Source of the DNA: Perkinsus marinus ATCC 50983
Taxonomy: Eukaryota; Perkinsozoa; Perkinsida; Perkinsidae
Direction of reading: 5' to 3'
Length of the DNA stretch: 64,000 nucleotides
Assembly (NCBI RefSeq): GCF_000006405.1
Contig: NW_003209454.1
Span: forward strand, 5,459-69,458
Shown here: piece by piece, positions 17,213-62,002 of the stretch
Layout of the letters: each line of letters begins with the position of its first letter
Position numbering within the stretch: position 1 is the stretch's first letter
The notes under the pieces: generated by a model
What the model was told of the DNA's origin: nothing
Databases searched by the model: none
Seen by the model: only the letters and a program-made list of their open reading frames with translations
Made by a program: the position numbers and the translations under genes

Positions 17213-19585
17213 ATGACCGCATCTGGTGAAAGCCGTCTCGAGAAGGCGAACAAGAAGTCCCCCTTCGTGCAGATAATGCAGTTGGCCATTCCCAACATGA
17301 TCAGCTTCCTCGTTATGTACGATTTGGGGGATATTCGTGTGATTTGGGGGAGGAGTGGTATGGAATTTCCGGGAACAGGTACTCTATATTCGTTATCACT
17401 ATCTTCTTTGTATCGGCCACTAATGATTCCAATATGCTTGGCGCCATTGGTCTCGGATCGGTCATCCAGAACGTGTTCGGATTCAGTATTGGAGTCGGTC
17501 TCATGTCGGTAAGTGGTTGAATGGTTAGCCTCCTCATCTTGCCACCAACCAACTCTGGTTCGAATCCTGGTAGATCCATATCGTACCATAATGGATGGTC
17601 GTAGGTCCTTGACACTCTAGTCAGCCAGGCAGTCGGCGCCGGCAACCCCCACCTCGGCCTCATCTACTTCAATCGTGCACGTATTGTCGGCACCATTGCC
17701 TTCGTTCCTTGCTTCATAGTCATGTAATACACCTATTCCTCCGTCACGCGCCACGAGATTACCTATCCCAGGTTCTACACTGAGCCCATCCTCCTCTGGA
17801 TGAACCAGGACCCCCTCACGTCTAAGCTGGCCGCTGAGTAAAGCTTACGACTCACTCAATCCCATCACTTCTAGTATTACTCAGTTACGTACGCGGTATG
17901 AACTGGGGTCTCTGGCCATTCTTCATGTACAATGCTATGTGCAGTTTCTTGAGGTAATGCATAACTACGTGTATGTTCTATAATATTGGCGATCCCTCGA
18001 CAGGTCCCATAGGCTACCAGAAGCCCCTCTATATGTCAACGCCATCACAGGCTGTGGCCATGCCCTTTTCTGTTGGCTCTTCTTATTCAAGTACTCCTCC
18101 TCGTCCTCTACCTCCCTTGATTCATCAACAGGTCGGCTCAGGTTCCACTTCGGCGCCTATGGTGTTGGTATTGCCATGACCTGTACCCAATGGGGTCGAT
18201 TCATCCTCCTTGAGCTCTACGCTGCCGTATTGCATCCCGAGACCCATGCCCATGGTTGGACCCCAGAGAGCCTCCACAACTTGTGGGAGTTTGTGGCTCT
18301 CGCTATCCCCTCTGCCCTCCTTATGTGGAGCGAATGGTGGGCTTATGAAGTTCAGGTAAGACGCCTTTGGCTTCACTCATGCACAGTGAACTCCTTTAGT
18401 CGGTATTCGCGGGTTGGGTTGGCCCGATGTCTTTGGCAGCTCACGTGGCCGCCTCTAACATCGTCTCCATCATCTATATGGGCCCGTGTGGTATTAGCCA
18501 GAGTGCCAGCGCTCTCGTTGGTAAGCTATCAGTGGTATCTCTCAGCACTTGTATAAAATTCATGAACTCTGATACAATGTGTACGAGCATACGAACGGCT
18601 TATTTTCAGGCAATTCTCTTGGCGCTGGTGATGTCCGTACGGCTCATCTGTTCAACCATAAGATCATCAGAGGAACTCTCGTCTGCTTTATTGTGGTTGC
18701 TATTCTCATGTGCAACTTCCGTTACTACGTTGCATACCTCTATAGCCGCGATCCAGCGGTAAGACGATAGGTATACCATCCCCTTCACTTTACTACTACT
18801 ACCCCTTCAGGTCCTCTCTATCCTATGTCCGGCACTACTAGCCGTCTCTGTATTCTGCATATTTGACGCCATGCAAGCCTGCCAAGAAGGTGTCCTCAGA
18901 GGATGTGCTCTCCAGGTATGTGTGTATCACAGTATGTGTTGGTCATTACTGTCATTCAGGGACGAGCCTCGACCTATAAGCTGCTCGCTATGCTCTTGAT
19001 TCGACTTCCTCTGGGGTAAGTTCTTTCCACTATGTTCATCAGTGACGAAATTCTCGTTTACTGTTTTACGCCTGAGCTCAGGAGCTGAGTAAACTGAACG
19101 CATATTCCAACACTGTCGTTTATTCAGTTATCTCTTCGCGTTCGGTTGGGGAGCTCTGCCGGCCATGGGTGTCCCCGGCATCTGGTGGGCCTCTGTTGTT
19201 GGTATGGCCATCACCTGTTCAGCGTAAGTCATTATTACCATTGCCCAGTTACTGTTGATGGATGAACTTGTCAGTTACGGTGCGATTATCTATCGTTGTG
19301 ATTTCACCAAATGTGCTCAGGAGGCCCTCACAAGGCACGAGAAGGAGGAAAAGTGAGTTACATTTATAGTGTGGGAAAATATGCACTACGTAGTTTTGGG
19401 AAATTCTTGTTGGTTTTTATAATTGGTGAGAAAACTCCAGAGCTCAGCTGTGGGAAGCGAACATACATTCCTACTCCAACACTGTTAATTCTAGCGCGAG
19501 AGTATGATTTTTGTTCAGATTGAAGGCGGCTCGCAGTCCCCTACTTGATGAAGAGGAGGCCGCTGGTGCCGGTGCTGCTGTATAA
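17213..19585 (+). CDS. MATE-family multidrug/toxin extrusion transporter, 486 aa
   Basis: Fourteen exons: 17213-17316, 17379-17508, 17605-17723, 17772-17837, 17885-17953, 18004-18090, 18142-18355, 18400-18520, 18610-18758, 18811-18915, 18960-19015, 19128-19223, 19275-19352 and 19519-19585. Every junction is GT-AG and in phase. MATE signatures are GAIGLGSVIQNVFGFS, VSQAVGAGNPHLG, LAAHVAASNIVSIIYM, SQSASALVGNSLGAGD, QEGVLRGCALQG and LGYLFAFG. About twelve membrane segments fit cation-coupled export of organic cations and drugs. The start ATG is the first that gives the usual short N-terminus; an in-frame extension to 17087 is possible. Intron 2 is a tRNA-like module, and introns 11 and 13 carry a shared dispersed repeat. 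Confidence 0.9.
17509..17604 (+). repeat. MATE intron 2: tRNA-like module filling the intron
   Basis: The 96-nt intron begins GTAAGTGGTTGAATGGTTAG (A-box-like GGTTGAATGGTTAG) and has a perfect B-box GGTTCGAATCC at 17557-17567, 55 nt downstream. That spacing fits a tRNA. The module is in the same orientation as the gene, and its first bases are the splice donor. Confidence 0.55.
19353..19518 (+). repeat. MATE intron 13: dispersed repeat family A
   Basis: It contains GGGAAATTCTTGTTGGTTTT and, about 40 nt later, GAGCTCAGCTGTGGGAAGCG, then CTCCAACACTGT. The same order occurs at 6296-6395. Partial copies lie at 8643-8705 and in MATE intron 11 (19063-19118). Confidence 0.55.
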
Positions 19586-20669
19586 GTACATCATCATACG
19601 TGCAACTTTCCTCACCAACGTTATAATCTATGCGCTTCTACGTTCTACCACTGTCTCTTCATCTCATACCTGTTGGGTTCAACATTTACAGTTAGTTCGA
19701 GCATTAGTGCTGAGCTTAATCTGAGAACAATTACTAATAGCGTAATCATGATCTGAATTGGTGAAAGAATTTGTGATTGATGCTCTCATTATTGTGGCCA
19801 CATCGTTCGCTAGAGGTATGTCGGCAAACAATCGTACACTGGAGCATTCATTACACCTCGGAATGATCGATCAGCAATAGCTTCTTACCGTATTCACCAA
19901 CCAGCGCCTCCTGTGAGGGTGGCAGTCAGAGCCATAGATGTAATCTGCCAGCGTAGCTCACGCGAATCAACACCGCGTTACTGTCGTCCTGTATGGCACA
20001 AAACTACGCTACATAACGCACAATCTAAGGAGCGCAATTTTCCTTTCTTTTATTATACCGCACAGCGAAGATTTTCTAAATATCTTACCTAACTTGGCTA
20101 TTCCTTCTACCACAATAGTACAGCGACTGCCATTAGTAGCCGAGATCATACGCGAGCGGACATGCAATGACGAGAGACCGACTGATGAGGACCTAACGGT
20201 TTAAGTGATACAAATGGAGTTTAGTAGGATGGTCAGCCGTCAAGAACAACCCGGGAATGAACACCCACTCGGGCGAACAGTGTATATACGTCCACCCTCC
20301 TCAGCTGACTCGGCGAGTTCCCTCACTGACCATTTAATATCCTAACGAGTTCGGGTAGGACTGTACAAGAAGCAATAAGAATTTTATCATAATTTTTGAT
20401 ATTGTCACCAACACACGTGGTTGGCCATGTGCACGATTCCTCACACTGCGAGCGAAGCTCACGAGTAGCTTCCTTGAGCCAATCCGATTCCCATAGAGAG
20501 GACACTAATGAGCAGTTGTTTGCATTGAGAGTGAAAACCCAATAAAACATCCTATTTTGAAACGTTGTTGACGTACAGTGCAGCCTCTACCTTGCCACTA
20601 CTACAACCCTAGTAGTGCTGAAAATCTTCCGAGTGCGATCAGAAGATATCTCCCCTATAGTTAGCGTCA
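19586..20669. other. no gene; contains a dispersed repeat (20298-20441)
   Basis: 20298-20441 (CTCAGCTGACTCGGCGAG ... AATAAGAATTTTATC ... TATTGTCACCAACACACGTGG) is a diverged copy of 22789-22936, which lies inside an intron of the EDC4-like gene. Nothing else is seen. Confidence 0.45.
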
Positions 20670-21273
20670 CTAATAATAATCTTCGCTGTGCGCTGGTCGC
20701 TTGGTTGAAGCCGAAACATACGTTTCGGATCCTCTGGTGACCTCAGCCAACCCTAAGCTTCTGATCAAACGTCGTCTCTGGCCGACCAGCCGTCTACGGT
20801 CTACGACCCTTCTCAAACCACTTCTTCGCTGTGCGTGATGGGTATCTTCTTCTTCACACAGTGGAGGCAAGAATAGCTCGGGGACGTCAGACAGGCTTTC
20901 ACTGAGATAACTTAGGCGTGGACTTTCTGGTATGAAGGAGTTCTCCAAAGGGAGCAACTCGACACCTTGTATGTAATCGTAGTCGTTGGAGTATCCGAGT
21001 CGTTGGTGCTTGGTTGGTCGTTGGTCAATAGTGTCCACGAAGATTAGGGAAGAGGGGACTGATGACGGCAGGCGGTCACTCTCTGAGACGGAAAAATTCA
21101 AATAAGGCGGAATGAGGTAGTCTATTACCATCATATTCAATCTTAGCTTCTTGGTCGTCTTGATGTCCAAGGAGGAGCGCTCGGAAGATCTTAGATTCTT
21201 GCATGATGTCGTAGAGAGTATCATCATCGTCATCGACAGCAAAGGTCGTAGTGGGGGAAGGTTGAGGTGACAT
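20670..21273 (-). CDS. orphan protein, 185 aa
   Basis: Two exons (minus): 21273-21129 and 21082-20670, with a 46-nt GT-AG intron. The joined frame avoids a stop present in the unspliced frame. The sequence is acidic at the N-terminus (DDDDDTLYDIM) and Pro/Ser-rich in the middle, with a basic Arg-rich stretch near residue 145 (RRVVDRRRLVGQRRRLIRSL) that could be a nuclear signal. No family is recognised. It may be a nuclear protein, on composition alone. Confidence 0.5.
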
Positions 21274-22427
21274 GTCGCAACTCGTTGATAAAACAAGCTG
21301 ATTAGAGTCCTTGTGTTGGAAATGTAATGGATTTAGCGACGCAAGCTAAGGAGAGGACAGCTAGCCTGTGAGACGAGATGACACTTTACGTTATGTCGAA
21401 TTGCGCTATCTAAAATGTTACTCATTCGTACCTGCTTTGTATCTTACCATCTCAACCTCAAGATACCCATGAAACCGCAACATACACCGCAGTATAAGAT
21501 ATTGCGCTGAAGCCATTAATAATGGCGAAGGATCGTCTCCACGTCGAAATTATTTCCCCGACTTAATCACATTGCTTACAGTATACTCTCTGATACCATC
21601 CCTCATCCAACTGACGATATTTCAAACCTACTACTCTCATATAATATCATACGATCGTTGCCACCAATGTGTGGAGAAAGGGTACGGTCGATGCAACGTG
21701 GAACGCGCGCGCCCATGTAATCGATCACGCGGATGATTTCCTTGATGGGCAGAGTCTGCAGATCTCAAAGATGAATTCGCTGCCTGTGTGGAGATAGTTC
21801 TATATGTTGTAAAACTGTCAAAAAACGGAAAGTTCGTTGTTGATTGTAGGCCTTTAGAAACGACCGAAGATGCGCTTTATGATGTTAGTAACAACATCAT
21901 GACGTAGTAGTAGTAGTAGTAGTAGCAGGCGATGACGACGACGACGGTTACACAGTTCCGAACTGTGATTATTACTAATCGTTACAGTTCGACACTCTAA
22001 CTTGAGGAATCATGTCAGCCTGATATGGTTACCTATTGGCTGATGATGAATTAAATAAGGATGGCTGTCAACGGGCTTATCAGAGAAATAAAGTTCATTC
22101 GAATAGCAACGGAACAAACCAGGTCGATGACACGATGAATCCGCTCTACACGAGTTCTGTGCATTAACTCCATTGAAGAGCCGCAATAGAGCATCACCTC
22201 GCGTCGTGGGGGAATATTCGCTGCCATAGTGAGGTGGGCTGAGCTCTGTTGATTGAATACTCAACAGCTGTTCCTGGGTTGTGGGATTAGCCCGGCAAAA
22301 TACAAGCCGCTGGGATCGAACCCAGATGTCCCCGGTCCTTTTAGAGGCTGGGGATGTTGGTAAACTTATTATTCGTGATTTGCATACTATGATTTCTTCC
22401 ACAAAATATTTTCAAGTTGTATATCGT
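21274..22427. other. intergenic; microsatellite and tRNA-like trace
   Basis: A (GTA)n run lies at 21906-21926. A copy of the GTATCTTAC...AAGATACC stem lies at 21434-21470. 22300-22345 holds a tRNA T-arm-like sequence on the minus strand (GGGTTCGATCCCAGC). No gene. Confidence 0.4.
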
Positions 22428-25149
22428 ATGATAATGTCCAGTATAAAAGCCGAAGCAGCATTGAAGTCAGAGTCAGAGCATCATTCACATGGTCATCATC
22501 ATAAAAAGTTGGGTGCTGCAAACCCGACATTCAAGAAGCTCTTTAACGATGGTCGACCGGCAAATCTGGCTGATGAGGATACACTTAGTTATGATACCTT
22601 GAAACTTTATGGACCTGGTAATACGGGAACTTTCTCATGGTGTGGTATCCATAACATTTATTCCATGTTTATGGCGTACAGCGATAAGAGTTGCCCTACA
22701 GAATGATATCCAAACGAAGATGCTACCGGAGATCATTGGAAAGGATTCATCTGAGGTGACGGTGTCGGAGGAATACTGTTCGCTTCCGCTCAGCTGAGCT
22801 CAGGAGTTCTCTCACTAGTTAGAGGAGTTTATATGCGAATTTGGGTAGAAGTGTATAGACACCAATAAGAATTTGCCAAAAAAATTTTATTGTCACCAAC
22901 GCACGTAGTTGACCATGTTTATATTCCCCCTTCACAGTGTGGATGTGTACGCGCTGTTCTTCTTATTGTTTTTCAGGCGATTGAACATCTATCTGAACTT
23001 GTTGGTGATATGAAAGCTACCATTTATCGGTCTGTAGCGCATATGGTCATGAATGAGACCTTTGTTGAGAAGATGGCAAGTGTTATGGACAAGGGCACTT
23101 CTGAGGCTGTTACCAGTGGACAGGTAGTAGCACTGAAATCGGCAGGGTAATGTACATCTCTGATTGTAGAACTATTAGCAACTACTCTAGTGCGGAGTCT
23201 ATTATTGGCATTTATTCGAGGAATGCGAATATTACATCTATCACAGCTTTTGTAATTTGTTATAGCCTACAGAGCTCCGAGTAGTCTCCTCCCAAGAGTA
23301 ACAGAGTAGTATTGGCAGGCCAATACTACTCTGTTACTCTTGGGAAGCTGAGTTGATGGTGTTCGCCTGAATTCAGTTTGTATATTTTTATTCCTCGATG
23401 ACGCTCATTCCCCCTCAGTTCCTCGGTTCAGGTGAAGAGTGCATTAGAGAGCGCGATCGACACCGAATTGGAAAAGTCCCTTTCGAGCGAGATCAAACAT
23501 CGTTTGGTTCCGGCCATGCTCGATTGTGTGGATTCTCTCACGTAAACAGTTGTTTCTCCGACCTAGTTCGTATCTTACCCGTCGGATGTTAAGATTCCTT
23601 TCGTCGGTTTTCAGATTGAAGGCTTCTGCGGATCAGACGGCTCAAGTGGAGGAACTCCGTCAAGCATTGGATTCTGCTCGCCAGACGGTAGTGACAAATT
23701 TGAGTGTCGAATTTTATGCAACTCTCACGGCTTCTTTTAGATTTCGTTGTTGTCTAACAAATGCAAGAGTTTGGAAAGTCGAGTCCGGGGCTTGGCGCAG
23801 TAGTACTTTATAATTTATATACGTTTTGAATCGGAATGCACTCACAATTTCAGGAAGCAACAATTCGCGAGTAGTGAAATTAATGTGAAGTTAGCGGAAG
23901 CGGTTAAGGAGTTGCGAGCCCTTGGCAAGGTGTCGAAATCGGCGCAAGTTCGATCCCGGCAGGAGGCGTTTTACTCAGGACGAGGATTTTGCGAGGCAAT
24001 TTGACACACGCGCTCTAACGCCCAACCTTCCCAGTCGATCCGAGGCTGAGATTACTGAGCAGGTAGTACATACCGCAACTCGTTGGAATCATGATATGGA
24101 TGATGAAGGTACTCGAGCAAGTGAGAGGGCAGGTCATAAGGCCGATGCTCGCTCAGATGAGGGACCTTCAAGAGGTGGGTTAATATCTGTGGTGATTTGG
24201 TGTCACGGTATTGGTTTGCACTATCACACCGGTGGTCGCTGGGTCGAATCATTGTACCGGCATTTTAGGTGATTAGAGTTAAGAGTGTATGTAATGGTCG
24301 AGAGGATAGCGCACCCTCGAGCCCTACATTGGCAGGTAAGGGACCCGGGTTCAATACTTGGGTGAGCATTTTTCAGGTTCAACCGATGCGGTGCGACGAC
24401 AGATGAAGGGACTGATTGATGAAGGGAAATGGGACGAGGCTTTCCAGGCGGTTGTTGCTTATACTTTACAAGTAGATATGGTATTGGTTCACGTGCACGC
24501 ATGTACAAGTCGTGTGCATGCGTGCAGAGCGCTACTTGTTGATTAACTCTTCTGTTTTTGATATATGATGTAGGTCGATGAGCAGAATAGTGATGATGTC
24601 TTGCAAGAGTTGTTGGAGAAAACCTCCTCACAGCCTGAGATGTGGTTGAGTCATACTTTACCCGGTACGACAAACGTCCCACTTTCCACACGACCTCTTA
24701 TCAAAGTGGATCTGAGTGAGTCAGACAAGGACAGTAGTCAGGCAGTGACAAATGATATTCAGTTGATGCGTTGGTGTTGCAATTGAAGGCCCCTAGGAGT
24801 GATATAAGTGTCGCTGTGGTCGACTCCAAATTGGATTGGTTACGCGAGCTGGCCCTTTCCATGAACACTTCCTCTATTCGTGGTGATACCACTCCTTTGC
24901 TACTTCTGTTACTAATCGTATCAGGTACGCCCGAGCTGATAGAACGGCTAAGTAGAATAGTACAACAGATGAAGGGCTTGGGGGAGGCTCCTGACAGCTT
25001 TGTAGCAGTTCAGAATATTCGAGACTCTGACACGACGGTGAGTATTGATGAATGCACTCTCACCTTGAGCGTCATATTTACAGGCGCAAAAGTTGTTATT
25101 GTCGAAGCTTGGTTTGGTTATACGATGTATGGAGGCTCTTATAAGATGA
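22428..25149 (+). CDS. EDC4: EDC4 / Ge-1 / Varicose-like mRNA decapping scaffold (C-terminal part)
   Basis: Fourteen exons (22428-22617, 22682-22755, 22977-23123, 23432-23541, 23615-23687, 23741-23799, 23854-23929, 23979-24062, 24109-24178, 24377-24471, 24574-24715, 24763-24882, 24925-25037 and 25084-25149) give 472 aa. All introns are GT-AG (42-308 nt). The protein has a His-rich N-terminus, a helical region (VALQNDIQTKMLPEIIGK, VKSALESAIDTELEKSL), a coiled coil (AQVEELRQALDSARQT) and the diagnostic end: MKGLIDEGKWDEAFQ, then KLDWLRELALSMN and AQKLLLSKLGLVIRCMEALI, matching the alpha-helical C-terminal domain of EDC4/Varicose. That domain oligomerises and binds decapping factors in P-bodies. 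The N-terminal WD40 propeller of animal and plant proteins is absent here; it is lost or encoded elsewhere. Confidence 0.8.
22789..22936 (+). repeat. intron 2 of EDC4-like gene: dispersed repeat copy
   Basis: Homologous to 20298-20441. Shared blocks are CTCAGCTGA, CAATAAGAATTT, ATTGTCACCAAC and CACGTAGTTGACCATGT. It fills most of the 221-nt intron. Confidence 0.5.
23291..23344. repeat. perfect 25-bp hairpin in EDC4-like intron 3
   Basis: 23291-23315 (begins CCCAAGAGTAACAGAG) is the exact reverse complement of 23320-23344, with a 4-nt loop (CAGG). Its GC content is close to that of the surroundings. It could be a recent short palindromic insertion or a small-RNA precursor. Confidence 0.85.
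24179..24376 (+). repeat. EDC4-like intron 9: two tRNA-like modules
   Basis: The first half reads TGGTGTCACGGTATTGG (A-box-like) followed by CTGGGTCGAATCATT. The second half reads GGTCGAGAGGATAGCGC followed by CCCGGGTTCAATACTTGGG (24345-24363). Both are in the gene's orientation. Intron 7 (23930-23978, 49 nt) carries a third B-box, AGTTCGATCCC. Confidence 0.5.
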
Positions 25150-27654: not shown

Positions 27655-28667
27655 ATTGATTTGCTCTCACTTTTTATCCTTGTCGCATCAATTAGTTTTT
27701 TGAATTGGCGTGCCACGTCGCCGTCGTAGAGTGTATTGATCATGATTCAGTGTGATACGACCGTACTGTATTCCATGCGTTGGTAGACCTAAACCGTAGT
27801 AGTTGTAATGCCCAGCGGGCCTCATGATAGTTACACACGTTGTAACACGTTCGTGCTCGTGCTTATTCAAGTCTTGGGTTCGACGTCCCTAGTTACCGTA
27901 GGTAGTGTTGTAGTCGGAGCGGACAGTGTCATTGGTTCTGAAAATTCAAAACGGGAAGATGTTGTAACTCAAGTAACTTAAGGATGGGGAGTTTGGAACT
28001 TCGAATATTATGAGTTCTAAGCATAAGAGAAATACCAATATGTATTAGCAAAATCGACCACGAACCGTTACACAATTATACTGAATTATAGGTGACCCGC
28101 TATATAAAACCGTCAGTCCAAGTTTACTCACATCATACTTGGGCCTCGGCAAGATTGTAACAGAGAAATAACGTTAATGCTTCGTCAAGCTGCTGGCAGA
28201 GTGAAATTCCGGGAAAGAGCTGCCGATGTGAGCCGATCTGAGCATACTCATCTAACGTAAACCATCGCTACTTGCGTCCAAAATGAAACTAAAAAAATCC
28301 GTTGCAGAGCGTGAGAGGTCTTTGAGGTGGGTTATGTCAAAGGACCCTCTAGGATCATATACCCATCGAGGATGCCTTTTGCATGTAAGTCCTCTCAAGT
28401 AGTACGAGCAGTTCCAAGAGTGCTTCGGGATGTGCTCTAGATGGGGAGAAGAGTAGGAATATGTCTGACGCCTCTTGTTCCGGCATATGGGACAGAGAGC
28501 AGGGTCGGTGCGAACTTACACAGTGAAGTAATTCCTTCTTGCATGATGATCTAATGGTGACTTAGGCGATATCAATGACGTACCGAAGGAGACCGAGATA
28601 TACAAGGTCATGAGACCATACGATACGAGTATGCGATAGTTCAGCAATAGACATGACGAAAAACTAA
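27655..28667. other. intergenic
   Basis: A tRNA T-arm-like sequence (GGGTTCGACGTCC) lies near 27870 on the plus strand. No gene is seen. Confidence 0.35.
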
Positions 28668-28740
28668 CGATCTCGGTGGGACTCGAACCCACAATCTTTG
28701 GTTCCGAAGACCAACGCCTTATCCATTAGGCCACGAGACC
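28668..28740 (-). tRNA. trnR-UCG: tRNA-Arg (anticodon TCG)
   Basis: A complete 73-nt cloverleaf. The acceptor stem pairs GGTCTCG with CGAGATC (one G-T pair). The D-arm contains GGCCTAATGGATAAGGC. The anticodon stem is TTGGT/ACCAA with loop CTTCGGA, giving TCG. The T-arm is GTGGGTTCGAGTCCCAC. It is intronless, with a TTTTT run a few bases downstream on the same strand as a Pol III terminator. This is the only intact tRNA in the window. Confidence 0.93.
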
Positions 28741-29182
28741 ATGTTGCACTCGTTTCATACTATCTTCCAGATGTCCTGAGGGAGAATGAATTGGCGGGTC
28801 AAATGAAGAAGACCCCTCCGACAGCTTGGAAACTGGCCTTATCCTCCGATATGCGTTGCGGATTCAATTCAAATCTTACTCACTGAACAATTATGATATT
28901 TGCCGTAGTCATGTAGGATTTCAGTTTGTAACTCTCATTCATCACTGAGTTAACACCTTCTACAGTATTCCCTCATCTGAATGAAGGCTCCCAAACCGCA
29001 TGAAGATGTACCCCTTCATTCAAAGTTTTACCGACAGATAGTGCTCTGCGTTTTATCCCTAAATGTACGAACGCAATCCAATCGACCTCAGAAACGTGTT
29101 GCTCGCACACATGATATCTCAGAAGCACTCAGAGCGTCTAAAACGTCTAAAGTTGGCAGGCAGTTGATATCCACTTGACGAG
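28741..29182. other. no gene seen
   Basis: Short frames only, on both strands. Confidence 0.35.
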
Positions 29183-30368: not shown

Positions 30369-30559
30369 TGAGTATGCCAGAGACTGAGAAGCGAGAGATC
30401 CCTGGTTCGCTCCCTGCCTGCCCCCATTGAGTATTTAATAATAACATCATATAATTCGCGTAGGAGACCGCTAATGATACAACAATAGGAGACAATCGCT
30501 ATCCCATCATCGTGTGTTTTCGAGAAACCAATGCCTGAGAGAATTATTCATCAAATCGA

Positions 30560-33500
30560 TCAACTGGGCGAGCGCTTTCTCACAGGATGATTGCAAATAG
30601 CTGCATGACTAGGCTTGCACTGAATGTGCGCTTCACCATCAGACCAGGTTTTAAGTGTCAGTCCTGAACAATAGACACTACTAATCAATCGGACGGCCGA
30701 GCGCGGTTGATAGAAGATTGTACTTACCATGTTCAATCAGCCAAGTAGAAGCATCTTTCACATCTGTGAAGTCAAGTACTTCAACAAGATGGCCGACAGG
30801 ATATGTTTGGTATCTGTTAAGAAAACCTTCGCTGTGCGTAAGATACGCTTTAATGAGCTCACGCTTTGGTGATTGTACGTAATGCCTTCAGACGCAAACG
30901 TTGTAGGAAGAGCCTCAATAGGTGGTAGGCATGAGTCGGGGCCGCCCTTGTTGGTATTGAACGTGGTGTGGAATCTTCCCCATCTTCCTCATCATCATGA
31001 TCAACCTCAGATGATTCACGACGAGCTATCCTCACTAGCCTAATCACCACGAAGACCACTACTCCACAATCAGACCATATTCCAGACAATTCCAGCAGGG
31101 ATGGAACATGATGAAAGAAGAGCATCACAACTCGCGAGAAATAGAGAGGCACTTCCTGTATCAGTGTTTAGTCCAAGCCTCTAATGTTAGCTACTGATGA
31201 TGACCATATTCGATGAACAGTGAATGATGAGCAACAGATGAATATGGCGACCAGAATGGGAAGAAGATGTCGTTCGCATACGCTGATATGCATAGTCCTA
31301 CCGAAAACATGCTTTATAATCATTGGTTGCCATAGCTTGTCGAATCCTCTTCGCGAACACAACGTAGGGATGATGACGCTGCTCCGAAGTTAGCATCCTA
31401 AGGAACTTCATTTCATCCGCTCGCAGAGACTGCAAGGAATAGTATCTGTCACGCGCCACGAAATTGATAACATATCTGCGAATAGTGCTCATTCACTCAC
31501 AGAAGTCGATAACAGAGGAATTCACAAGTGACGTTGTCATCATTCGCTCCTTCCGCAGCATAAAGATATCTAGAAAGAGATATGAAATAGAATGCTCATG
31601 CTGCTGCTGCTGGTTATCATGAGTACTTCAGCTGAGTTTGACATTGATTGAACTGTCCCAAGTCCTCTGCCTCCAAGGCCCATCTAGCGTTTGCCTCATA
31701 AACCGATCGAGTAAACTCGTCCTTCATATTCTGCACTGTTAAATCCTGTCGAACCGCCCTGAGACAAACATGATTCATTAATCGATGATAGTTGACCCCT
31801 ATCAATNNNNNNNNNNNNNNNNNNNNNNNNNNNNNNNNNNNNNNNNNNNNNNNNNNNNNNNNNNNNNNNNNNNNNNNNNNNNNNNNNNNNNNNNNNNNNN
31901 NNNNNNGATGAAGATAGAGGAAACGACGCCAAACTACCTTAAGCTGTTCTCCAATGTACTCCCAGTCACGAGATTTGCTTCGATGGAACTCCCTTAGATG
32001 CTCCATCCACTTCTTTAGGACCGCTGGGGGCCGCACCTGATTAATGGATTAATTTGCAACATGCCGGGATCGAACTCGGGTGGCGTTATGCATACTATTA
32101 ATGATCATCACTACAATTCCCTATACCTTGAATGTTGACCGGACCTCAACTTACCAGACTTGGATCGGGTTGGCTCGTCAAACGGAGGTAGCTTTTCTCC
32201 ATTTTCTGGCAAGTGCCCACAACCACAAAGTCGACGGTCTGGTCAAACACTTCCGACTCATCAACTCCGAAGGAGAAGTTGACGTCCAGCGGAGCGATGC
32301 GGGGTGCTGCCGATCTGACAATAGAATTGATACACAACTCATGGCAGCAATCGCCGCTTACCCGTTGGCATCATCAGTCCAAAGCCCTCCAACAACTGAG
32401 GAACTCGATGCAGCTTCATCTGCCTCTGCAATAAAGGCAACTTTCGAATTACGTCATACAGCAATGATTTCCAGAATGACTATTGTACGAGACCCTTGCA
32501 TGGTTTTCATCAATGACTTCTCAATGAAACCTCATCCCTCTGATGTGTAGAAGGACCCTTGCTTACTAAATCGTTCCATCCTCTGTTGTCGTCGCCTTAG
32601 CTCCTCCTGTGTAGTCGCCCCTTGCATCATTGATATGGCACCCTATGAAGATAGCTTCGTTGGGACAAGTGTGGTATGGTAATCATCACCTTCTTCGCCT
32701 TAGCTTGTAGCTTCCCTTTCCGCTTGTTCGCCTGTCCTTTCTTATTGACCCCTGGAGTTAACGTTACACTATAGGAACCTGTTTTTGTTGTTGCTGCTGC
32801 AAGCCCATCACTCAACGGTATGAAATCTCTATTACCATCTGAAAGGGGAGAGTTGCATTCAACATCTAAGAGTATGCAGGGATCGGTGCATTCCGATCGA
32901 ATAATGGGCGATTCGCACAGGTTTACAAGACTAAATAAGTGTAGCTCACCAGACAAGCGTCTAGAAGGGGACTTCTTCTTTGGGCTACCTCCTCGACGAG
33001 ATCTCTTAGGTGAGGGGACCATTAGGGATGTTGCTTCCTGTAACAACAGCATTCAAGGAGTTGACGGCTTGTAGTGTATACCTGTTCCCACAACTTCGGA
33101 TCGACTCTAGCATCTATATCCCTTTCTGGTGGTACCGGATAATGGTTCCAGTCAGTCGTCCAGTATGTGCCTACTCATACACGCATTAATTCATCAAAAC
33201 TTCCCCACATAGAGCACTCCCGCCCAGATCTAGCCATTCAGAGTTGGAATACTATGTATCACTTAAACAATTCACTAAGAGTCTACATCTCAGTCCCCAT
33301 CACAAAGATCTACTACGATTATCAATAAGCCTCATAGACCAGGGTTTCCGTCACCTTCGGCTTTTAACTTGTTGGTGATCTCCTTCACGACAGTATCTGC
33401 TGCCGATAATCGAGCAGTTCTGAGCTCCTGACTCATGCTGGGTCTGCCTCCGAGGGAAGCATACAATCGCTGCACCCACTGCAGCATACCAGGGGGATGT

Positions 33501-34383
33501 TGACTGGCTGCCGCCTGAGCATCGGAAGGTCCCCGGATCTACCCCACCACCAGTCATATTTTACTTTATTCTTCATAGCATTTTGAATCACCGCGGCCGC
33601 ACCAGGTTGATTATAATGCCCCGCAGGACCCCCCACAGCACTCCTCTGTTGATTATACCACGCCTGAGTGAGTATACCCTCTACCACAAGTTCGATCCCT
33701 GCACCTGTTGATAAGCCATAGCTGCTTGCTGCTGCTGTTGCTGTTGATACATCATATACATAGCTGCTTGTTGTTGTTGCTGTCTGTAAAGGAAGCATAT
33801 GTACCGAATAGTATACCCAACTTACTGAGGCTGGTAGACAGACTGTGGTGTTGACTGTTGAGGGCTACTACTCGTTGAGGCCACCACCGCCGCTTGTTGT
33901 TGTGGGGCTGCTGGAGGGGGCGAGGCCCGGGGCGGTCGAACTTGTTTCTGTTCCACTGCATGCTCATATAGGTGATATACCATAGTCTTCCAGAACTGAT
34001 ACCTATGCCGTGCCGTGATAGCGAACGGGTATTCCCATCTATCCCTATTACAAAGCAATGCCCTTCTTAGTCGAGTTAGGCTGTTGTTTATTCAACGTTT
34101 TAGCATACTCCTGAACATGTTGTCGGACCTGAACTGCAAAATGTCCTCTCACTGTATACTCCCACATCCCTTCTATCATCCTATCCTAATAGCCGCGACT
34201 TATCCACCTGGTATCCATATCCCGAGTGAAGTATGATACTACCTGTTCCTGTTGGGCTGCCGGTAAGACGTTAAACATCCCACATACTCTCTGTTTTTCA
34301 ACAGGACTCTCTGTCGAGCTATCCAAGGACACTCCACACGAGGCTTCTACAAACCTTCCTCCTGGAGTAGATGAACTCGACAT
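30560..34383 (-). CDS. LENG8/THP3-like SAC3-GANP domain protein
   Basis: At least eighteen exons run from ATG at 34383 to a stop at 30560; a 100-N gap falls in the intron region after 31938. The N-terminal part is Gln/Pro-rich, with poly-Q tracts around 33783-33705. It then carries LWEQ-type and Lys-rich nuclear sequences ([19 protein letters not shown]) and the family core: [61 protein letters not shown], the [20 protein letters not shown] segment and a C-terminal winged-helix-like end ([14 protein letters not shown]). SAC3/GANP proteins of this group act in nuclear mRNA processing and export. Several introns have alternative donors; those giving 46-60 nt introns and the best family fit were chosen. 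One intron (32154-32037) holds a tRNA-like T-arm. Confidence 0.8.
31807..31906. other. assembly gap (100 N)
   Basis: A run of 100 N inside the LENG8-like gene, between coding segments ending at 31938 and resuming at 31758. The reading phase across it does not fit directly, so a short exon is probably hidden here. Confidence 0.99.
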
Positions 34384-38050: not shown

Positions 38051-38405
38051 ACCCTCGTGAAGAGCCCGTTAATATGATCTGATAAGGGTCTGGTACCCGG
38101 AACCCCGCCTACGGTCAAAGTCTCTAGTATGCCGGTCGGTCAGACCGATGGGATACTACGGGATACTCATCAAGACATCAATCCGCCTCAACCTAACCAA
38201 CTGTCGAGTTCATGTCGACGATAGCATGCGAGGTCATTCCATCGGCGAGGAACCTATCCAGACTGCTGACTATGTAAGAAAGAAACACTCAACTCAAACC
38301 ACCTTCAATGAAGAGGAATTTCACTCTGAAATGGTGAATCTGAATCACATAATCTGCTATAATGTGAATGATAAGAAACTAAAAGAAACCAAAACATCAG
38401 CTGAT

Positions 38406-38877
38406 CTAATGCTTAGACATAGGTCCCCAAGGTGCTAGAGTAACAATCTCCTCACCAGCAGTAGGATGTATAGCAACAGTACGATCAAGATCAGCCTTAG
38501 TGGCACCCATCCTCATGGCTACTGCAAAGCCTTGTAAAAGCTCATCAGCACCCATACCGATGACATGAAGACCAACAACCTTCTCCTCTGGACCGGTACA
38601 GATTACTTTTACCAAAGTCTTTGGCTTATCAGAGGGCTCTACTTGGAATATACCATAATAGAGATTCACAAACCTTGAACGATAGATCTGAATAGTGATG
38701 ATGATGATAGAGTAACTATGATGAGAGGAGAGTTTAATAAATTACCTTAAGATTATCCTTACCATACTTCTCAACGGCTTGAGCTTCTGTGAGACCACAA
38801 GTACCAATCGGCGGATGGGCAAAAACCACAGTAGGAATAGTCTCATAGTCTATGTACAGGTTACTTGTATCCTATTC

Positions 38878-38911
<34 letters not shown>

Positions 38912-40654
38912 TGAGTGAATAGTAGGACATTCGAATACTCCTCACCTTGAAGGGTCCAAATAACCGGTCTGATAAAGTTCTACCAGCAGCAATAGCGACC
39001 GGAGTGAGCTCAAAGTTGCCAACAGCATCTCCAACAGCGTATACCCGTGGCATGGAGGTGTTCTGATACTTATCAACCTACTCAAAGTAGTGGTAATCAT
39101 CAATCTAGAGGTTGGACATACAGAAGCATTACCTTGATGTACCCCTTAGGAGTGAGGTCCATAATACCCTTACATCCGATAGCTTCGACATTGGGCTTAA
39201 CACTTCTACCAGCAGCCATAACAATACATTCCGCAGAGATCTCAGCCCCCGACTCGGCAACAAGAGTGAGGATACCAGTAGATTCATCCTTAGTAACCTT
39301 CTTGGGGACAAACTGTGTCACCACCCTAAAGCATGAGGGGTTATACTCTAATACCGATATGAGGATATCACTTCATTCCGGACTTCTTCATCTGTACCAT
39401 CAATTCATCGGATATATCTTCATCGAAGGTACGTAAAGCCTAATGATAATAGCAATAGTGATAAACGTGTATTATAAGTAGGTAGTTCCAACCTTATGAC
39501 GTCTAACAGTAAGTGTGGTATCGGCACCAAAGGCATTAAAAATGCCGGCCAACTCTACAGCGATATAACCAGCACCAGCTACTACAACACTCTTAGGTAT
39601 CTTCTCCAATTGGAAGAAACCTGAACAATATCATCATACCTTCATATGTTTGAGACTGCAGTCATGCAACTACTCACCATCAGAATCAATCACAAACTCC
39701 TTCCCTTCGATATCAGGGGTTTCGGGTTGACCTCCACAAGCGATAAGGACGTGACCAGCAGTAAGCTTCTTACCATCATCGAGCTAATGACAATACCACC
39801 TCACTAATAATAATGGTAAGGATACCACCTACCTGGATGGTCACCTTATCGTTATCACTCTCATTACCAACAATACGACCAGCGGAACGGATCAAGTCAA
39901 CCTGAATGATAAGAGAGATCCAAAGTGTCTAAGATATTAATACCCCAACGATCCTACCCCAGCTTCCTTGAGTAGATTTTGATAGAAAGTCCGCCGACCA
40001 GCAAGGTACTCATCCCTTCTAGCTTTGAACGTGCTGTAATCGATCACAGGAGCGTTACGGCCGCCTTCCGCAGTTTGGAAACCGTAATGACCAGCGTCTC
40101 GATGGAAGATCTCATTCATAGTAGCAGCATGCCAAGTTAGCTAAGGGGAGGCAATTACGATCCGATGCATAAAACCATACTTAGGACTACCTTCTTAGGC
40201 ACGCAACCGACATTGACACATGTTCCAGCGAGCATATGGTCAACATCCCTTTCGATAAGACCCACTTTAAGAGGATTCTCGGGTGTACGATATCCAGCAG
40301 CCCGACGAGAGGATGACATACCTTCATATAGTAGGTTATAATAGAAAGGTTGAATAGTCACGATGAAGACTACTTACCTCCACTACCACCACCTATCACA
40401 AGGTAATCGTAATCCAAATCTTTATGGGATGAGGATGATACTGCGCGGGCTGCTGCTGCTGTTGATGATGATGACATACTTCTTTTTAAGACTAGTGGCG
40501 AAGCCCCAAAACTACCACCACCACCATTACCATTCATATCGTTCTTAACAAGAGGGGATGTAATACACAATAATCTAGTAGTAGTAGTAATAGCATACCG
40601 CACTGCTGAGTTGTCGATGATGATATTAGCGTGAGCAGTAGTAGTAGATAGCAT
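38406..40654 (-). CDS. GSR: glutathione reductase, copy 1
   Basis: About eleven exons on the minus strand. The N-terminal extension is Ser/Ala-rich and hydrophobic and could be a mitochondrial or plastid presequence. Then come the FAD site (VIGGGSGG), the redox disulfide ([12 protein letters not shown]), the NADPH-binding fold ([14 protein letters not shown]), the second FAD motif ([20 protein letters not shown]) and the active-site HPTAGEE near the C-terminus, ending GPMSKH. The enzyme reduces glutathione disulfide with NADPH and supports antioxidant defence. The start ATG at 40654 follows a non-ATG in-frame extension. An intron holds a (CAA)n microsatellite (38877-38910). The neighbouring gene upstream is a near-identical copy. 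Confidence 0.92.
38877..38910. repeat. (CAA)n microsatellite, long allele
   Basis: 34 nt of CAA repeats in an intron of glutathione reductase copy 1. The matching intron of copy 2 (41430-41445) has only 16 nt. Confidence 0.95.
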
Positions 40655-40958
40655 CAACAATCACAACAAGTAATGGATAATTCTATCTACTATGGAACTG
40701 ATTCCTCCACTTCCTACGTATAACATAGTAGAACTCTATAACCCAATAGGCTCGGTAACTGCATGATCCTACCTATGATGCCACACAGGATAGACCCACA
40801 CTAGACTAGATCCATGGGGAGAACACAAATCGACACTATTAAACAGGAAGCTCATTCTTTCGCTGGCGACTTTTAATCACTTTATCCGCTATAGTTTGAT
40901 GATTGACAAGCTCCCGTACACTTTAAAACATAGTACTACTACTACGAGGTGTGTTGAT

Positions 40959-43184
40959 CTAATGCTTAGACATAGGTCCCCAAGGTGCTAGAGTAACAAT
41001 CTCCTCACCAGCAGTAGGATGTATAGCAACAGTACGATCAAGATCAGCCTTAGTGGCACCCATCCTCATAGCTACTGCAAAGCCTTGTAAAAGCTCATCA
41101 GCAGCCATACCGATGACATGAAGACCAACAACCTTCTCCTCTGGACCGGTACAGATTACTTTTACCAAAGTCTTTGGCTTATCAGAGGGCTCTACTTGGA
41201 ATATACCATAATAGAGATTCACAAACCTTGAACGATAGATCTGAATAGTGATGATGATGATAGAGTAACTATGATGAGAAAAGAGTTTAATAAATTACCT
41301 TCAGATTATCCTTACCATACTTCTCAACGGCTTGAGCTTCTGTGAGACCACAAGTACCAATCGGTGGATGGGCAAAAACCACAGTAGGAATAGTCTCATA
41401 GTCTATGTACAGGTTACTTGTATCCTATTCAACAACAACAACAACATGAGTGAATAGTAGGACATTCGAATACTCCTCACCTTGAAGGGTCCAAATAACC
41501 GGTCTGATAAAGTTCTACCAGCAGCAATAGCGACCGGAGTGAGCTCAAAGTTGCCAACAGCATCCCCAACAGCGTATACCCGTGGCATGGAGGTGTTCTG
41601 ATACTTATCAACCTACTCAAAGTAGTGGTAATCATCAATCTAGAGGTTGGACATACAGGAGCATTACCTTGATATACCCCTTAGGAGTGAGGTCCATAAT
41701 ACCCTTACATCCGATAGCTTCGACATTAGGCTTAACACTTCTACCAGCGGCCATAACAATACATTCCGCAGAGATCTCGGCCCCCGACTCGGCAACAAGA
41801 GTGAGGATACCCGTAGATTCATCCTTAGTAACCTTCTTGGGGACAAACTGTGTCACCACCCTAAAGCATGAGGGGTTATACTCTAATACCGATATGAGGA
41901 TATCACTTCATTCCGGACTTCTTCATCTGTACCATCAATTCATCGGATATATCTTCATCGAAGGTACGTAAAGCCTAATGATAATAGCAATAGTGATAGA
42001 CGTGTATTATAAGTAGGTAGTTCCAACCTTATGACGTCTAACAGTAAGTGTGGTATCGGCACCAAAGGCATTAAAGATGCCGGCCAACTCTACAGCGATA
42101 TAACCAGCACCAGCTACTACAACACTCTTAGGTATCTTCTCCAATTGGAAGAAACCTGAACGGTATCATCATACCTTCATATGTTTGAGACTGCAGTCAT
42201 GCAACTACTTACCATCAGAGTCTATAGTAAACTCTTTCCCTTCAATATCAGGGGTTTCAGGCTGGCCTCCACAAGCGATAAGGACGTGACCAGCAGTAAG
42301 CTTCTTACCATCATCGAGCTAATGACAATACCACCTCACTAGTAATAATGGTAAGGATACCACCTACCTGGATGGTCACCTTATCGTTATCACTCTCATT
42401 ACCAACAATACGACCAGCGGAACGGATCAAGTCAACCTGAACAACGGACACTTGTGAGTATGTTCGCAGTAATGATATCCCAATGGTCCTACGTCAGCAT
42501 TCTTCAAGTTATTTTGGTATATACCACGCAGTCTGGCGAGATACTTGTCCCTTCTAGCTTTGAAAGTAGTGTAATCCATTGCTGGTGCATTACGACCCTC
42601 ATCGGTCTGGAAACCATAATGGCAGGCATCATGAAGGAAGGTCTCATTCATAGTAGCTGCGCTCCAGGTCAACTAAGGAAGAATGATGGGGGAGATAACA
42701 AGTCAAATGATGACTACTACCTTCTTAGGCACACATCCAACATTGACACATGTTCCGCCAATCATATGGTCAACATCCCTTTCGATAAGGCCAACCTTAA
42801 GAGGATTCTCGGGTGTACGATATCCAGCAGCCCGACGAGAGGATGACATACCTTCATATAGCAGGACATAATAGAAAGGTTGAATAGTCACGATGAAGAC
42901 TACTTACCTCCACTACCACCACCTATCACAAGGTAATCGTAATCCAAATCTTTATGGGATGAGGATGATACTGCGCGGGCTGCTGCTGCTGTTGATGATG
43001 ATGACATACTTCTTTTTAAGACTAGTGGCGAAGCCCCAAAACTACCACCACCACCATTACCATTCATATTGTTCTTAACAAGAGGGGATGTAATACACAA
43101 TAATCTAGTAGTAGTAGTAATGGCATACCGCACTGCTGAGTTGTTGATGATGATATTAGCGTGAGCAGTAGTAGTAGATAGCAT
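40959..43184 (-). CDS. GSR: glutathione reductase, copy 2
   Basis: Same exon order and motifs as copy 1 ([39 protein letters not shown]). Most exons and introns differ by only a few bases; examples are IGMAADEL in place of IGMGADEL and HMIGGTC in place of HMLAGTC. One block is far more diverged: the exon near 42427-42672 reads [20 protein letters not shown] where copy 1 has [20 protein letters not shown], and the adjoining intron is also different. Similarity stops sharply just outside the start and stop codons. Both copies appear intact, so the cell may express both. No targeting difference is visible, because the presequences are almost the same. Confidence 0.9.
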
Positions 43185-43510
43185 CAACAATCACAATAAA
43201 TAACTCGATTACTAAGCCCTACAGCTGATAAGACAGTTCCTCGAGGAAGCTAAAAACCTAACGCAATACTTCCTACTGCGTCACCAATCACACTCGCTTG
43301 GGCCGCACGCGTACACAAAATACGTGAAAAAAGCAAACATCCTCTAGTACGATGAGCTGCAGGGAATCAACATGAGACTAGCGACAATAGATATGAGCAT
43401 CACAGTCTATATGAACACCTCACACAAGGAGCTGTCTCGTGGTCCTGGACCGACACAAAAACTGTCTCCTTTCTATATGGCTGCTGCTACTGCTACTGCT
43501 GCATCATTCA

Positions 43511-45178
43511 TTACTGATAACCATCGTCGTGTTCCGAAGCTCCGAAGCTTAGCATTCTGAAAGCTGATACAGTAGCCTCCTGAGAAACACAGTAAGAAGC
43601 AATACCCAGTTTATTAAGACACTCATATAACACTATCATTCTTCTTAAGGACAGGATAAAATCATTAAGCAGAATTGATAGGCGGAGAACCCATTCCCGG
43701 ACCTTAAGATCTGGACGGGGCTCAATCCTCACAGTGATGTACTTAACTGTACTCAACAATACTAATGAAGTATGATGTCTATGCTTCTAACCAACTCTGA
43801 TGGATACGATGGTACTACTACTCCTCCTGTACCTTATAAAGGGTATACTCTGAGCAATGATAACGACAAGTTGTTGTTACCTCCAATCACAGTCAAAATA
43901 CTCCTAATCATCCACGACAACGACGATGACGACGAAGACGCCCTTGCACAAGAAGAAGCTCCTCGAGTCGGTAGTATAAGTGGAAAGCAATCCCGCCGGA
44001 GTCGACGCTGTCTCCGTAGTAGCCCTCTCGTGGCAATACCCGTAAGATGGTATACCACAAGGCAACCCATAAATGCTGCAGCTACAGGATGCCTACCATA
44101 AATGCATGGTGATAGGATCGAACCTGCGATATAATTCTCAACTCACTACTTCCGGCACAAGGATAAGAGTGAACTCATTGTTGAGGTATTAGTGAACCCC
44201 TCAATGTCATTAATATCGACCACTGATGCCGCGGCAGATAACTGAAGGGTTGTTGCATGACCCAAACGTGAGGATGACGTCTATCATCATCATCAGCTCC
44301 TACCGTAGATGTTGATGCTACTACCGCTACTCCACTACAGCATCCCATATCACGTAGGACCATGCATACTAGTTCATCCAAGGATGAACATTTACTACTG
44401 CTCCCTGCATCTGATAGTAATAATGATCAGCAGTTGCAGCACCAAACAATAACATCCCTACTTGAAGCCTTCTCTGAGGTCTCCTCATCCTCCTTCTCCT
44501 CAGATGATGATGATGATATCACAACACTATCTTCTGTGACCAAGTCTGATAGATTAATACCCCCACCCCCACCACCATTTACACTACCCTCACCATGATG
44601 AGACCTACAAACAGCAGTCTGTACTATAAGTATAACTATTCCTACTGTAATGTGGTGAGTAAGCTCCCACGTGTGTGCCGCCGCCAGTCTACAGTACCAC
44701 TACTGGGTGGTGTACGTAACAAGTCTTCAACGGTTGCTGCCCATGTGTGGTCTGTGATGGGACCTCACTCCTCGAGTAGCAATACTGCTTACCAGGTAGT
44801 CTCTCTCTGAGCATGAGGGCCAACCTTCTTTGCCTCTCCTCGTGGATGGTAGTATCCTTAGCTGAATTGAGGATATCATGACCCCCCGAGGTAAGATAAC
44901 CCTCGTCATCATCATTATAATCATCATCTTCATTATCTACTCTATCATCAACCATCTGAAGGAGTACTATGATGATGGTAAGGGAAGGGGCGTCTTACCG
45001 TCCATGACTTGTTAGAGACCAATGATGGTGTGAGCTCATCGTTATCACAGAGAATAGCTCCATCATAGCTACTATGTGATGATGATGATGAACAGGCATA
45101 TTCACTAAGTCCAGTGATGAATGTGTCCCTTTCCTTCTCCTCCTCTTCATCATCTATACATGGTATATGGAACATCAT
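43511..45178 (-). CDS. orphan acidic/Ser-rich protein with helical C-terminal part
   Basis: ATG at 45178 (MMFHIPCIDDEEEEKERD). Joined exons give an acidic N-terminus (DNEDDDYNDDDEGYLTSG), a helix (HEERQRRLALMLRERLP), a hydrophobic stretch (GIVILIVQTAVC) and poly-Ser/Glu. The helical region includes SSLDELVCMVLRDM, SVVDINDIEGF and SLLSLCRKHPVAAAFMGC. A likely last part lies at 43759-43511 (DLKVREWVLRLSILLNDF). The pattern is faintly armadillo-like, but I do not claim the family. An intron at 44099-44155 is a tRNA-like T-arm in the gene's orientation (GGTTCGATCC). The 3' end is uncertain. Confidence 0.4.
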
Positions 45179-45263
45179 AATTCCTATCACAAGTACACCC
45201 AATTACAGCAACCAAACACTCAACATCCATAAGAGGATAAGAGACATTGACAGGAAAATCATT

Positions 45264-46684
45264 TCAATACCCAGAGGATACGTTGACTTGGTTCGGTAGG
45301 TCCTTTGCTGGAGTACCACTGCTGAATGCATTGAGGAGTTTGTTGAACATATCGACGGTAAGAGGCAGATAATCATCGGTGAAGTCAGCACAGTGGGAGC
45401 TCATCAAGAACCTACATAATAATGGAGGTAGTGGGAATCGAACCTGGGTCGAAGACTATCATCTCCTACATATCAGGTCCTAGACTCCACAGCTTAGAGT
45501 CTTCCCTGAGGGGTTCGGATTCGAAAACATCCAATGCCGCTGATGCTGGACCACGATGAGGAGTGCTCAGGCTTTGTACAGTGCCGCCTCATCTACACAT
45601 ACTCCCCTACCGATTGATATGAATACTGATGTTGGACACATTAATGCAAATTCCTAAAATGCCACATGCCGGGATTGAACCCGAGTCGTGAATCACTTAC
45701 GTGAGAACCACAAAAGTGTCAGTACTCGGCGTACCACGGAGGGAGCATATGACAAAGTCCGATTCACGGAACAACTAATAAGGTAACATCACCCCATGAT
45801 GATCATTAGTCTGCTGATTACCTTGTTCTTCTGTTCAAGTACTCCACTATTGAGTACCTCATCTGCTAAATCGCTACCAGGGCCATCATCTATACGACTA
45901 CGTAATGCAAGGATCCTCATCCCTGGAAGATAGAACATGATGATGTGTCCATTATTACAGAGGACTTACCAAGGGGTCTGCACACTTTAGCAGTCTCTTG
46001 TGCTATACTGCCGAAACCAACGAATCCAACAGTCTTCCCTCTTAAAACGGGCATTCTAAATTTACGCCATACCTTATCTTTCTGAAGTCTTTGTAGCATA
46101 GGAACTTTCTTATTGAAATGCAACATACACATGAGAGAGTATCTACCATAATCATCATCATCATTAGTTTACTGCTATCCTCGCCTTACTCAGCCAAGCT
46201 CTTAGAGAAAGCACCTCGGGCGTTTGTGAGAGTTATCTTATCTGCAAGATTATTGGACACGAGAACAGGGACGAGGCTGTCGACACCAGCTGAGAGGGAG
46301 TGAACCCAGGACAGCTTATCCATACCATAATGTTGGAAAAGACTCTGAGGTAGCAGGAATTGAACTCACGACCATACGATTGAGAGAGAAGCCTAAATAC
46401 CACTTGACTATTCCTCCCGACTTACAGCCACGACACGAGGATCTCCCGCTGCCCATAGGACCATACACCTGTTGTGAGCAGGTAACTGAGGCATCTGCCT
46501 CGTGAAGTCCTCCAACCTATGTCCGTATCTGTTAATGAGACATTGAAGAAAGGCATCATTAAAGCAGCTACATTAAGGTAGCTTTTTGTGGTAGTAGTTT
46601 GTGTAGAGTAGGGGAGATCTCCTCTCCATACTTATCAACTTCTGACTCTACGACAAATACTACCACATTATCATCAGAAGACAT
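45264..46684 (-). CDS. D-2-hydroxyacid dehydrogenase family protein (one apparent frameshift)
   Basis: Exons from ATG 46684: 46684-46572, 46528-46426, 46314-46190, 46142-45970 and later ones to a stop at 45264. Core motifs are LSWVHSLSAGVDSLV, LRGKTVGFVGFGSIAQETA (NAD-binding GxGxxA), SDFVICSLRGTPSTD, VFISIGRGVCVDEAALYK, ALDVFESEPLREDSKLW and MSSHCADFT, giving the family's Arg, Glu and His active-site residues. It is probably a glyoxylate/hydroxypyruvate- or phosphoglycerate-type reductase. At about 45570 one base is missing relative to the expected frame, so the gene is either a recent pseudogene or the assembly has an error. Three introns contain tRNA-like modules in the gene's orientation. 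Confidence 0.8.
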
Positions 46685-61954: not shown

Positions 61955-62002
61955 CAACAATTCAGCGCAGTGGACCCGCGCAGGTTCGAGTCCCACGGAG
62001 GA
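61955..62002 (+). repeat. internally deleted tRNA-like sequence
   Basis: An A-box-like AGCGCAGTGGA is followed directly by a T-arm CGCAGGTTCGAGTCCCACG and an acceptor-like end, then a TTTTT run. The anticodon arm is missing. It abuts the foldback element. Confidence 0.45.

Follow-up and report, generated by a model that had tools for sequence, protein, structure and literature searches.

Introns of unrelated genes in Perkinsus marinus ATCC 50983 contain a conserved module of approximately 34 nucleotides (nt) that resembles the 3′ third of a transfer RNA (tRNA). We analyzed this module in a window of 64,000 nt (contig NW_003209454.1, positions 5,459 to 69,458 of the forward strand; coordinates below are those of the window) and in the genome surveyed, 54.5 Mb in 347 contigs, of which the window is a part. 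On balance, our observations suggest that the modules are a dispersed family originating from the 3′ part of a tRNA and that many copies act as introner-like elements, perhaps as retroposed 3′ fragments. A previous sequence-only reading of the window had proposed tRNA-like modules in introns of unrelated genes; these modules are real and recurrent, but most comprise only the 3′ third and not a full tRNA module.

A module resembling the 3′ third of a tRNA is abundant in the genome

The genome contains 976 exact copies of the B-box motif GGTTCGANTCC and 132 of the reversed pattern. In the window the exact motif was found five times (once inside a tRNA gene), where 0.12 would be expected. With up to two mismatches allowed, the excess in the window is modest, 61 matches against 42.1 ± 6.5 in shuffled sequence; none of the 100 shuffles was as high. 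A fixed-spacing signature, GGTTCGAWTCC-N9-CATTTT, is present at 91 places, 42 on the forward strand and 49 on the reverse strand; no place matches its reversed control.

We examined 104 contexts of the exact motif, mostly the first-listed 100 of the 976 places and hence not a random sample. ARAGORN called 31 of them as tRNA genes and left 73 uncalled. When aligned, these 73 share columns −8 to +26, and no flanking column from −60 to −9 exceeds 0.21 bits. The conserved block reads A-G-G-T-C-[CG]-C-[GA], the B box, YRG, a weakly conserved stretch of seven mostly variable bases, C, A and a T-run. By sequence, the module corresponds to tRNA positions 44–73 (variable loop, T-arm and 3′ strand of the acceptor stem) followed by the T-run terminator of RNA polymerase III (Pol III). 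As working tRNAs the modules were rejected: they form no cloverleaf, 73 of the 104 contexts were uncalled and the acceptor pairing is missing.

A weight matrix of 34 positions was trained on the 73 copies, four of which come from the window itself, and places scoring at least 14 bits were called as modules. The window contains 16 such places, namely 15 non-tRNA modules and one genuine tRNA-Arg(TCG) gene (28667..28741, minus strand; called by ARAGORN, Rfam tRNA 69.4 bits), which serves as an internal contrast; the reversed window has none, and 10 Markov simulations gave a mean of 0.1. The 64-kb window thus holds 15 modules, a density of 234 per Mb. In 81 kb flanking tRNA loci there were 6 (74 per Mb), two near-duplicate pairs among them, and in 21 kb flanking another repeat there were 2 (97 per Mb). 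Extrapolated from these densities, the genome would hold thousands of copies.

The A box, which the sequence-only reading had placed upstream of many modules, is kept by a minority only. In a set of 87 copies (92 modules minus four in a repeat of ~310 bp and minus the near-duplicate locus L024), 5.7% have an A-box score of at least 10, compared with 1.4% of 348 control stretches, and 12.6% have a score of at least 7, compared with 6.9% of the controls. Examples are the 81-nt intron 46345-46425 and the 96-nt intron 17509-17604. Consequently, the family as a whole lacks the combination of Pol III A box and B box that marks a tRNA-derived short interspersed element (SINE), and shows the B box without an A box that marks a TFIIIC-only (extra TFIIIC, ETC) site. 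At tRNA positions 63–64, the 87 copies carry CA 32 times, TG 22 times, CG 13 times and TA never, the trace expected from CpG decay.

Modules occupy most of the length of short introns

Eleven module introns are supported by a protein match over the splice junction, one of them (2-HADH) below the family cut-off. In the sense orientation these are introns of MATE (96 nt), PP2C (79 nt), 2-HADH (58 nt), DIM1 (50 nt), Brr2 (53 and 52 nt) and LENG8/THP3 (118 nt), and in the antisense orientation those of a DEAD-box helicase (47 nt), Sec23 trunk (48 nt), an rRNA adenine dimethylase (48 nt) and an amino-acid transporter (53 nt). With 2-HADH set aside, a similar sequence therefore recurs in introns of all these unrelated genes, as it does in introners. 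In eight of the 11, which measure 47–58 nt against 34 nt for the module, the element lies near both donor and acceptor, another introner mark; this is the part of the earlier introner-like proposal that holds.

Outside the window, the spliced DIM1 peptide scores 88 bits against Pfam and aligns without gaps to a solved DIM1, and the DDX5/17-like DEAD-box peptide does so to a solved DDX17. Brr2 matches the U5 200-kDa helicase (98.7 bits) in two stretches, the better of which crosses both junctions with no gap at either. The other helicase cassette of Brr2, at the N terminus, stays open at both intron sites, with no stop codon. The transporter peptide scores 25.7 bits, at the cut-off of 25.6. Four other candidates stayed outside the 11: RPF1 (L079, antisense) gave a weak match of 22 bits that is gapped where the exons join, the prenyltransferase repeats of FNTA (L065) lie next to its junction, the Pfam match of cytochrome b5 (L053) ends up upstream of the junction, and no match was found for Exportin-7 (L175), which had been identified by eye.

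In the window, the MATE-gene intron (17509..17604, plus strand; module 17549-17582) has A-box-like and B-box parts, and its spliced peptide crosses the junction within Pfam MatE at 29.8 bits, or 34.9 bits for a longer peptide (cut-off 24.9). The intron of the LENG8/THP3-like gene (32037..32154, minus strand; sense module 32051-32084) gives a peptide that aligns to THP3 without gaps over the junction (51.1 bits) and also matches LENG8 chains; it has no Pfam match. The 2-hydroxyacid dehydrogenase-like (2-HADH) gene, for which no paralogs were found, contains three modules on the minus strand. Over the junction of its 58-nt intron (45412..45469; module 45419-45452, 33.3 bits), the Pfam 2-Hacid_dh_C match reaches 20.5 bits, under the cut-off of 25.1. 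Its 81-nt intron (46345..46425; module 46341-46374) has A-box-like (score 10.1) and B-box parts, and by eye the frames rejoin in phase 0; the last four module positions are exonic, without the T-run. In the third case, a 47-nt candidate intron (45654..45700; module 45656-45689), the sites GTAAGT..TTTTAG leave the frame, read by eye, off by one nt.

Other candidates were assigned from splice sites and reading frames. In a gene labeled "EDC4-like" by the sequence-only reading alone, module 23939-23972 (19.2 bits) occupies most of a 49-nt candidate intron (23930..23978, plus strand) with GT..AG ends and frame judged by eye. Downstream, 24179..24376 (plus strand, frames by eye) is a candidate intron or pair of introns with modules at 24233-24266 (25.3 bits) and 24340-24373 (16.4 bits); the two modules are separated by CATTTTAG followed directly by GTGATT, so that two introns perhaps abut without an exon between them. 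A gene for an orphan protein has a 54-nt candidate intron, GTGAGT..TAG, with a sense module (44093..44146, minus strand; module 44099-44132, 16.7 bits). The B-box sites named earlier at 17557+, 23947+, 24241+, 24348+, 32066−, 44114−, 45434−, 45671− and 46356− all scored well, at 15.3–33.3 bits. The site in a gene that the sequence-only reading labeled GT32 (34784−) did not: it scored 6.6 bits, at noise level, with an A-box-like stretch upstream by eye.

The lengths bear on how these introns arose. In the MATE gene, six introns that lack a module, with boundaries taken from the paralog alignment, measure 41, 44, 47, 48, 50 and 89 nt. A 34-nt element inserted into an intron of 41–50 nt would give at least 75 nt; most simply, then, the intron consists of the element together with its immediate flanks. 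Thus, the short lengths favour intron creation over insertion into an existing intron, with six introns of one gene as the comparison, and we infer that in such cases insertion made the intron.

Introns form in both orientations

The sequence-only reading had described nearly all modules as co-oriented with their host gene. The window bears this out, with nine intronic modules in sense and one antisense candidate; the binomial p is 0.02 by module and 0.22 by gene (5 to 1), as one gene holds three of the modules and another gene three more. The antisense case is a 95-nt candidate intron from the splice caller (33470..33564, minus strand; module 33527-33560 on the plus strand, B box at 33535+, 14.0 bits). 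It is a better example than the opposite case proposed before, 33689+, whose 6.8 bits do not rise above noise (14 places in the reversed window reach 6 or more).

Elsewhere the bias disappears. We used a symmetric splice caller based on open reading frames, which also gives false positives; codon-usage windows gave too weak a signal to assign the coding strand, and Pfam searches with single best exons found two families above cut-off per strand. Among 72 modules outside the window the caller found 26 sense and 27 antisense candidates, five modules entering both columns. For 32 intact modules picked from 91 by sequence alone, it gave 16 sense, nine antisense (two of them the near-duplicates L149 and L151) and seven neither. 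On all 87 copies, window included, the sense call had the higher score for 43 and the antisense call for 38; at a score of at least 6 the counts were 15 and 10. Four of the 11 protein-supported introns are antisense. The sense bias is therefore local to the window and not a property of the family, and the earlier idea that the element carries one fixed pair of splice sites is not supported.

In sense introns, a YAG mostly comes within about 20 bases after the T-run. Where the module is antisense, the end of its T-run, taken as the complement, is often GTAAGAA, GTAATAA or GTGAGAA, which resemble a donor. We hypothesize that the element would insert into or at an AG/GT-like place in an exon, in either orientation, leaving some 50 nt for the spliceosome to excise. 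In a sense copy the T-run would act as the pyrimidine tract with YAG after it, and in an antisense copy its end would be read as the donor. A minority of the module introns are longer (79–118 nt), and some of these keep an A box. The likely source would be retroposition of a Pol III RNA that ends in a U-run and is truncated at its 5′ end; use of such an RNA intermediate is our inference.

Direct repeats of at least 8 nt that are out of register flank 10 of the 87 copies, compared with 2.8 in shuffled sequence (z 4.6). Eight control window pairs gave z values of −0.1 to 2.5 and counts of 2 to 7 at this length. These repeats hint at target-site duplications (TSDs) for a subset of copies. In four copies flanked by direct repeats, the sequence upstream of the module occurs nowhere else in the genome.

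Alternative explanations

Several observations weigh against a family of retroposed, intron-making tRNA fragments. The transporter gene with a module (L105) has a tandem paralog, L133 (C40:535670-535828), in which a 54-nt intron occupies that position but holds no module; the intron there may therefore be older than the module, while four more distant L105 paralogs lack an intron at this position. Among the matches listed, the first 81, similarity between copies is mostly limited to about −15 to +28, and the family-wide end-to-end similarity of introners was not seen; exceptions to this limit are a repeat family of its own, loci that are near-duplicates, and a few pairs that stay similar to about +47. 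In-register direct repeats over the junctions of 15 introns average 2.3 nt, no more than AG/GT, and so the junction TSD of those introner families that have one was not found in these 15. The excess of out-of-register repeats is gone in a narrow window (−60 to −8 with 18 to 45), and one control pair shows a mild excess of its own (7 versus 2.8 at 8 nt or more). Lastly, the modules do not pair as tRNA parts would. A full 7/7 complement to the seven acceptor bases lies within 150 nt upstream in none of the 73 copies, where shuffling gave 2.5, and within 290 nt in three, where it gave 5.2. A pairing scan upstream and downstream, which varied word length, place and side in 768 combinations, gave nothing above z 3, and the outer T-stem pairs show no covariation (paired fractions 0.51, 0.48 and 0.45 against 0.49, 0.51 and 0.52 for permuted columns). 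This lack of acceptor pairing and T-stem covariation is unusual for recent copies of real tRNAs.

The best-surviving alternative, which we regard as rather unlikely, is that tRNA-derived retroposons or tRNA pseudogene fragments landed in existing introns and intergenic DNA without making introns. The L105/L133 pair fits it, and so does a MATE paralog that has the same intron with a decayed module. Modules also occur apparently outside introns (8421, 48465 and 61983, by eye), and some module introns are long (79, 96 and 118 nt supported, 81 nt by eye). Against it stand the eight of 11 supported introns that are too short to be an intron of 41–50 nt plus the module, measured against the same six MATE introns.

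A functional bipartite DNA site, for example a TFIIIC-only (ETC-like) site selected in non-coding DNA with no history of insertion, appears improbable. It would account for the missing RNA pairing and covariation, the little similarity around the module among the matches listed, the occurrence on both strands and the variable stretch of fixed length. However, in four pairs of related loci (93–99% identical) the modules changed at five of 170 positions and the remainder at 266 of 6565, a similar rate that, on few data, gives no sign of strong constraint. The decay pattern at positions 63–64 also argues against such a site, as does the T-run, since TFIIIC is not known to require one at a fixed distance. 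Moreover, the motif would need to arise by substitution in many 50-nt introns.

Intron-encoded tRNA-like RNAs, excised and processed by RNase P/Z, are very improbable: C72-A73-TTTT does lie at the tRNA distance, but the acceptor 3′ strand has no upstream complement beyond the counts given above, and 27 of 53 candidate introns are antisense. Chance matches to a short motif, which the mere ~1.4-fold excess at two mismatches would suit, are refuted as the source of the high-scoring set by the genome, signature, window and reversed-control counts.

Additional modules and repeats

Five window modules were missing from the earlier list, with B boxes at 8421−, 22312−, 30404+, 48465+ and 61983+. Three of them lie by eye about 50–150 nt upstream of reading frames in the sense direction, and these might be in 5′ introns or trans-splice acceptor regions. 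The first (8406..8439, minus strand, 31.3 bits) lies ~100 nt before the start codon of a frame resembling ribosomal protein S10; the 30 amino acids from that start score 25.4 bits against Pfam S10_plectin, just under the cut-off of 26.9. The second (22297..22330, minus strand, 17.4 bits) precedes a minus-strand frame, and the third (48457..48490, plus strand, 20.7 bits) precedes a 681-codon open frame at 48602-50647. The module at 30396..30429 (plus strand, 17.2 bits) lies between 10-nt direct repeats CATTGAGTAT at −38 and +21, and that at 61975..62008 (plus strand, 26.8 bits) adjoins a 51-nt repeat array, a large inverted repeat of 51-nt units at 60853-61944.

The separate ~310-bp repeat starts with ACTAGGCC and has a module in its head. 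A 103-nt query found 27 near-full copies, 95–100% identical to it, and three partial ones; the loci of this repeat include L119-L126, L001, L044, L078 and L087. The spliced-leader exon CCGTAGCCATCTTGGCTCAAG belongs to the TCTT type. All 34 genome matches agree on this, with a search pattern that allowed C or T at that position, and Perkinsus marinus is reported to have this form (PMC9399869); the Perkinsus origin assumed by the sequence-only reading is thus well founded. These 34 places are often paired, ~5–6.3 kb apart.

The window also contains an 82-nt tandem repeat array (35878-37079; copies mostly 99% identical), a tandem duplication of ~2.5 kb (38402-43015) with several pieces 96–99% identical and others ~70–75%, a perfect 27-bp hairpin with a 2-nt loop (23290-23345), and two inverted-repeat pairs ~61 kb apart, between 635-1091 and 62059-62449 (37 and 58 nt; 89% and 84%).

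Discussion

tRNA-derived SINEs and tRNA retropseudogenes have a B box, a pre-tRNA-like 3′ end with a T-run and flanking direct repeats. The modules resemble them in the B box, the T-run end and, for some copies, flanking direct repeats. They differ in that most lack an A box, no common body was found and their introns are little longer than the copies. An intron of rice catalase was reportedly made by a SINE.

The modules are like the introners of Micromonas, Symbiodinium, Polarella, Amoebophrya and others in that a repeated sequence forms introns in unrelated genes. A survey of 548 introner families by Gozashti et al. (2022) reports median lengths of 30–654 nt and, as DNA-transposon marks borne by many of them, TSDs in 49 of 130 and terminal inverted repeats in 72 of 177 assessable families (PMC9860276). 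Very short families exist in it, some families have no TSDs and, in some, the site of insertion supplies both splice sites (PMC9860276); these are points of likeness with the modules. Unlike those introners, the modules have about 31 common positions with a variable stretch inside, and their sequence is that of a tRNA 3′ third. The main text of that survey does not mention tRNA, SINE or Perkinsus (PMC9860276). Introner elements of Amoebophrya, an alveolate lineage near Perkinsus, are likewise invading introns, and have inverted repeats of 8–20 nt and direct repeats of 3–5 nt over their boundaries (PMC7789003). The modules differ in having no direct repeats at the junctions, and no inverted repeats appeared in our pairing scan, which was not aimed at intron ends. 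Full-text literature searches, with most subscription journals outside their scope, found no tRNA-derived introner, which is no proof of absence.

It is conceivable, and we offer it only tentatively, that retroposed tRNA-like 3′ fragments made hundreds to thousands of Perkinsus introns in both orientations, that insert length may set the usual short intron length, and that module-free introns would be older and decayed. The origin of new introns is an old question, and many described introners carry the marks of DNA transposons. Perkinsus is close to dinoflagellates and Amoebophrya, where introners are known, and a short element with the sequence of a tRNA 3′ third, removed by splicing whichever way it points, would be a source of introns unlike those, and a very small one.

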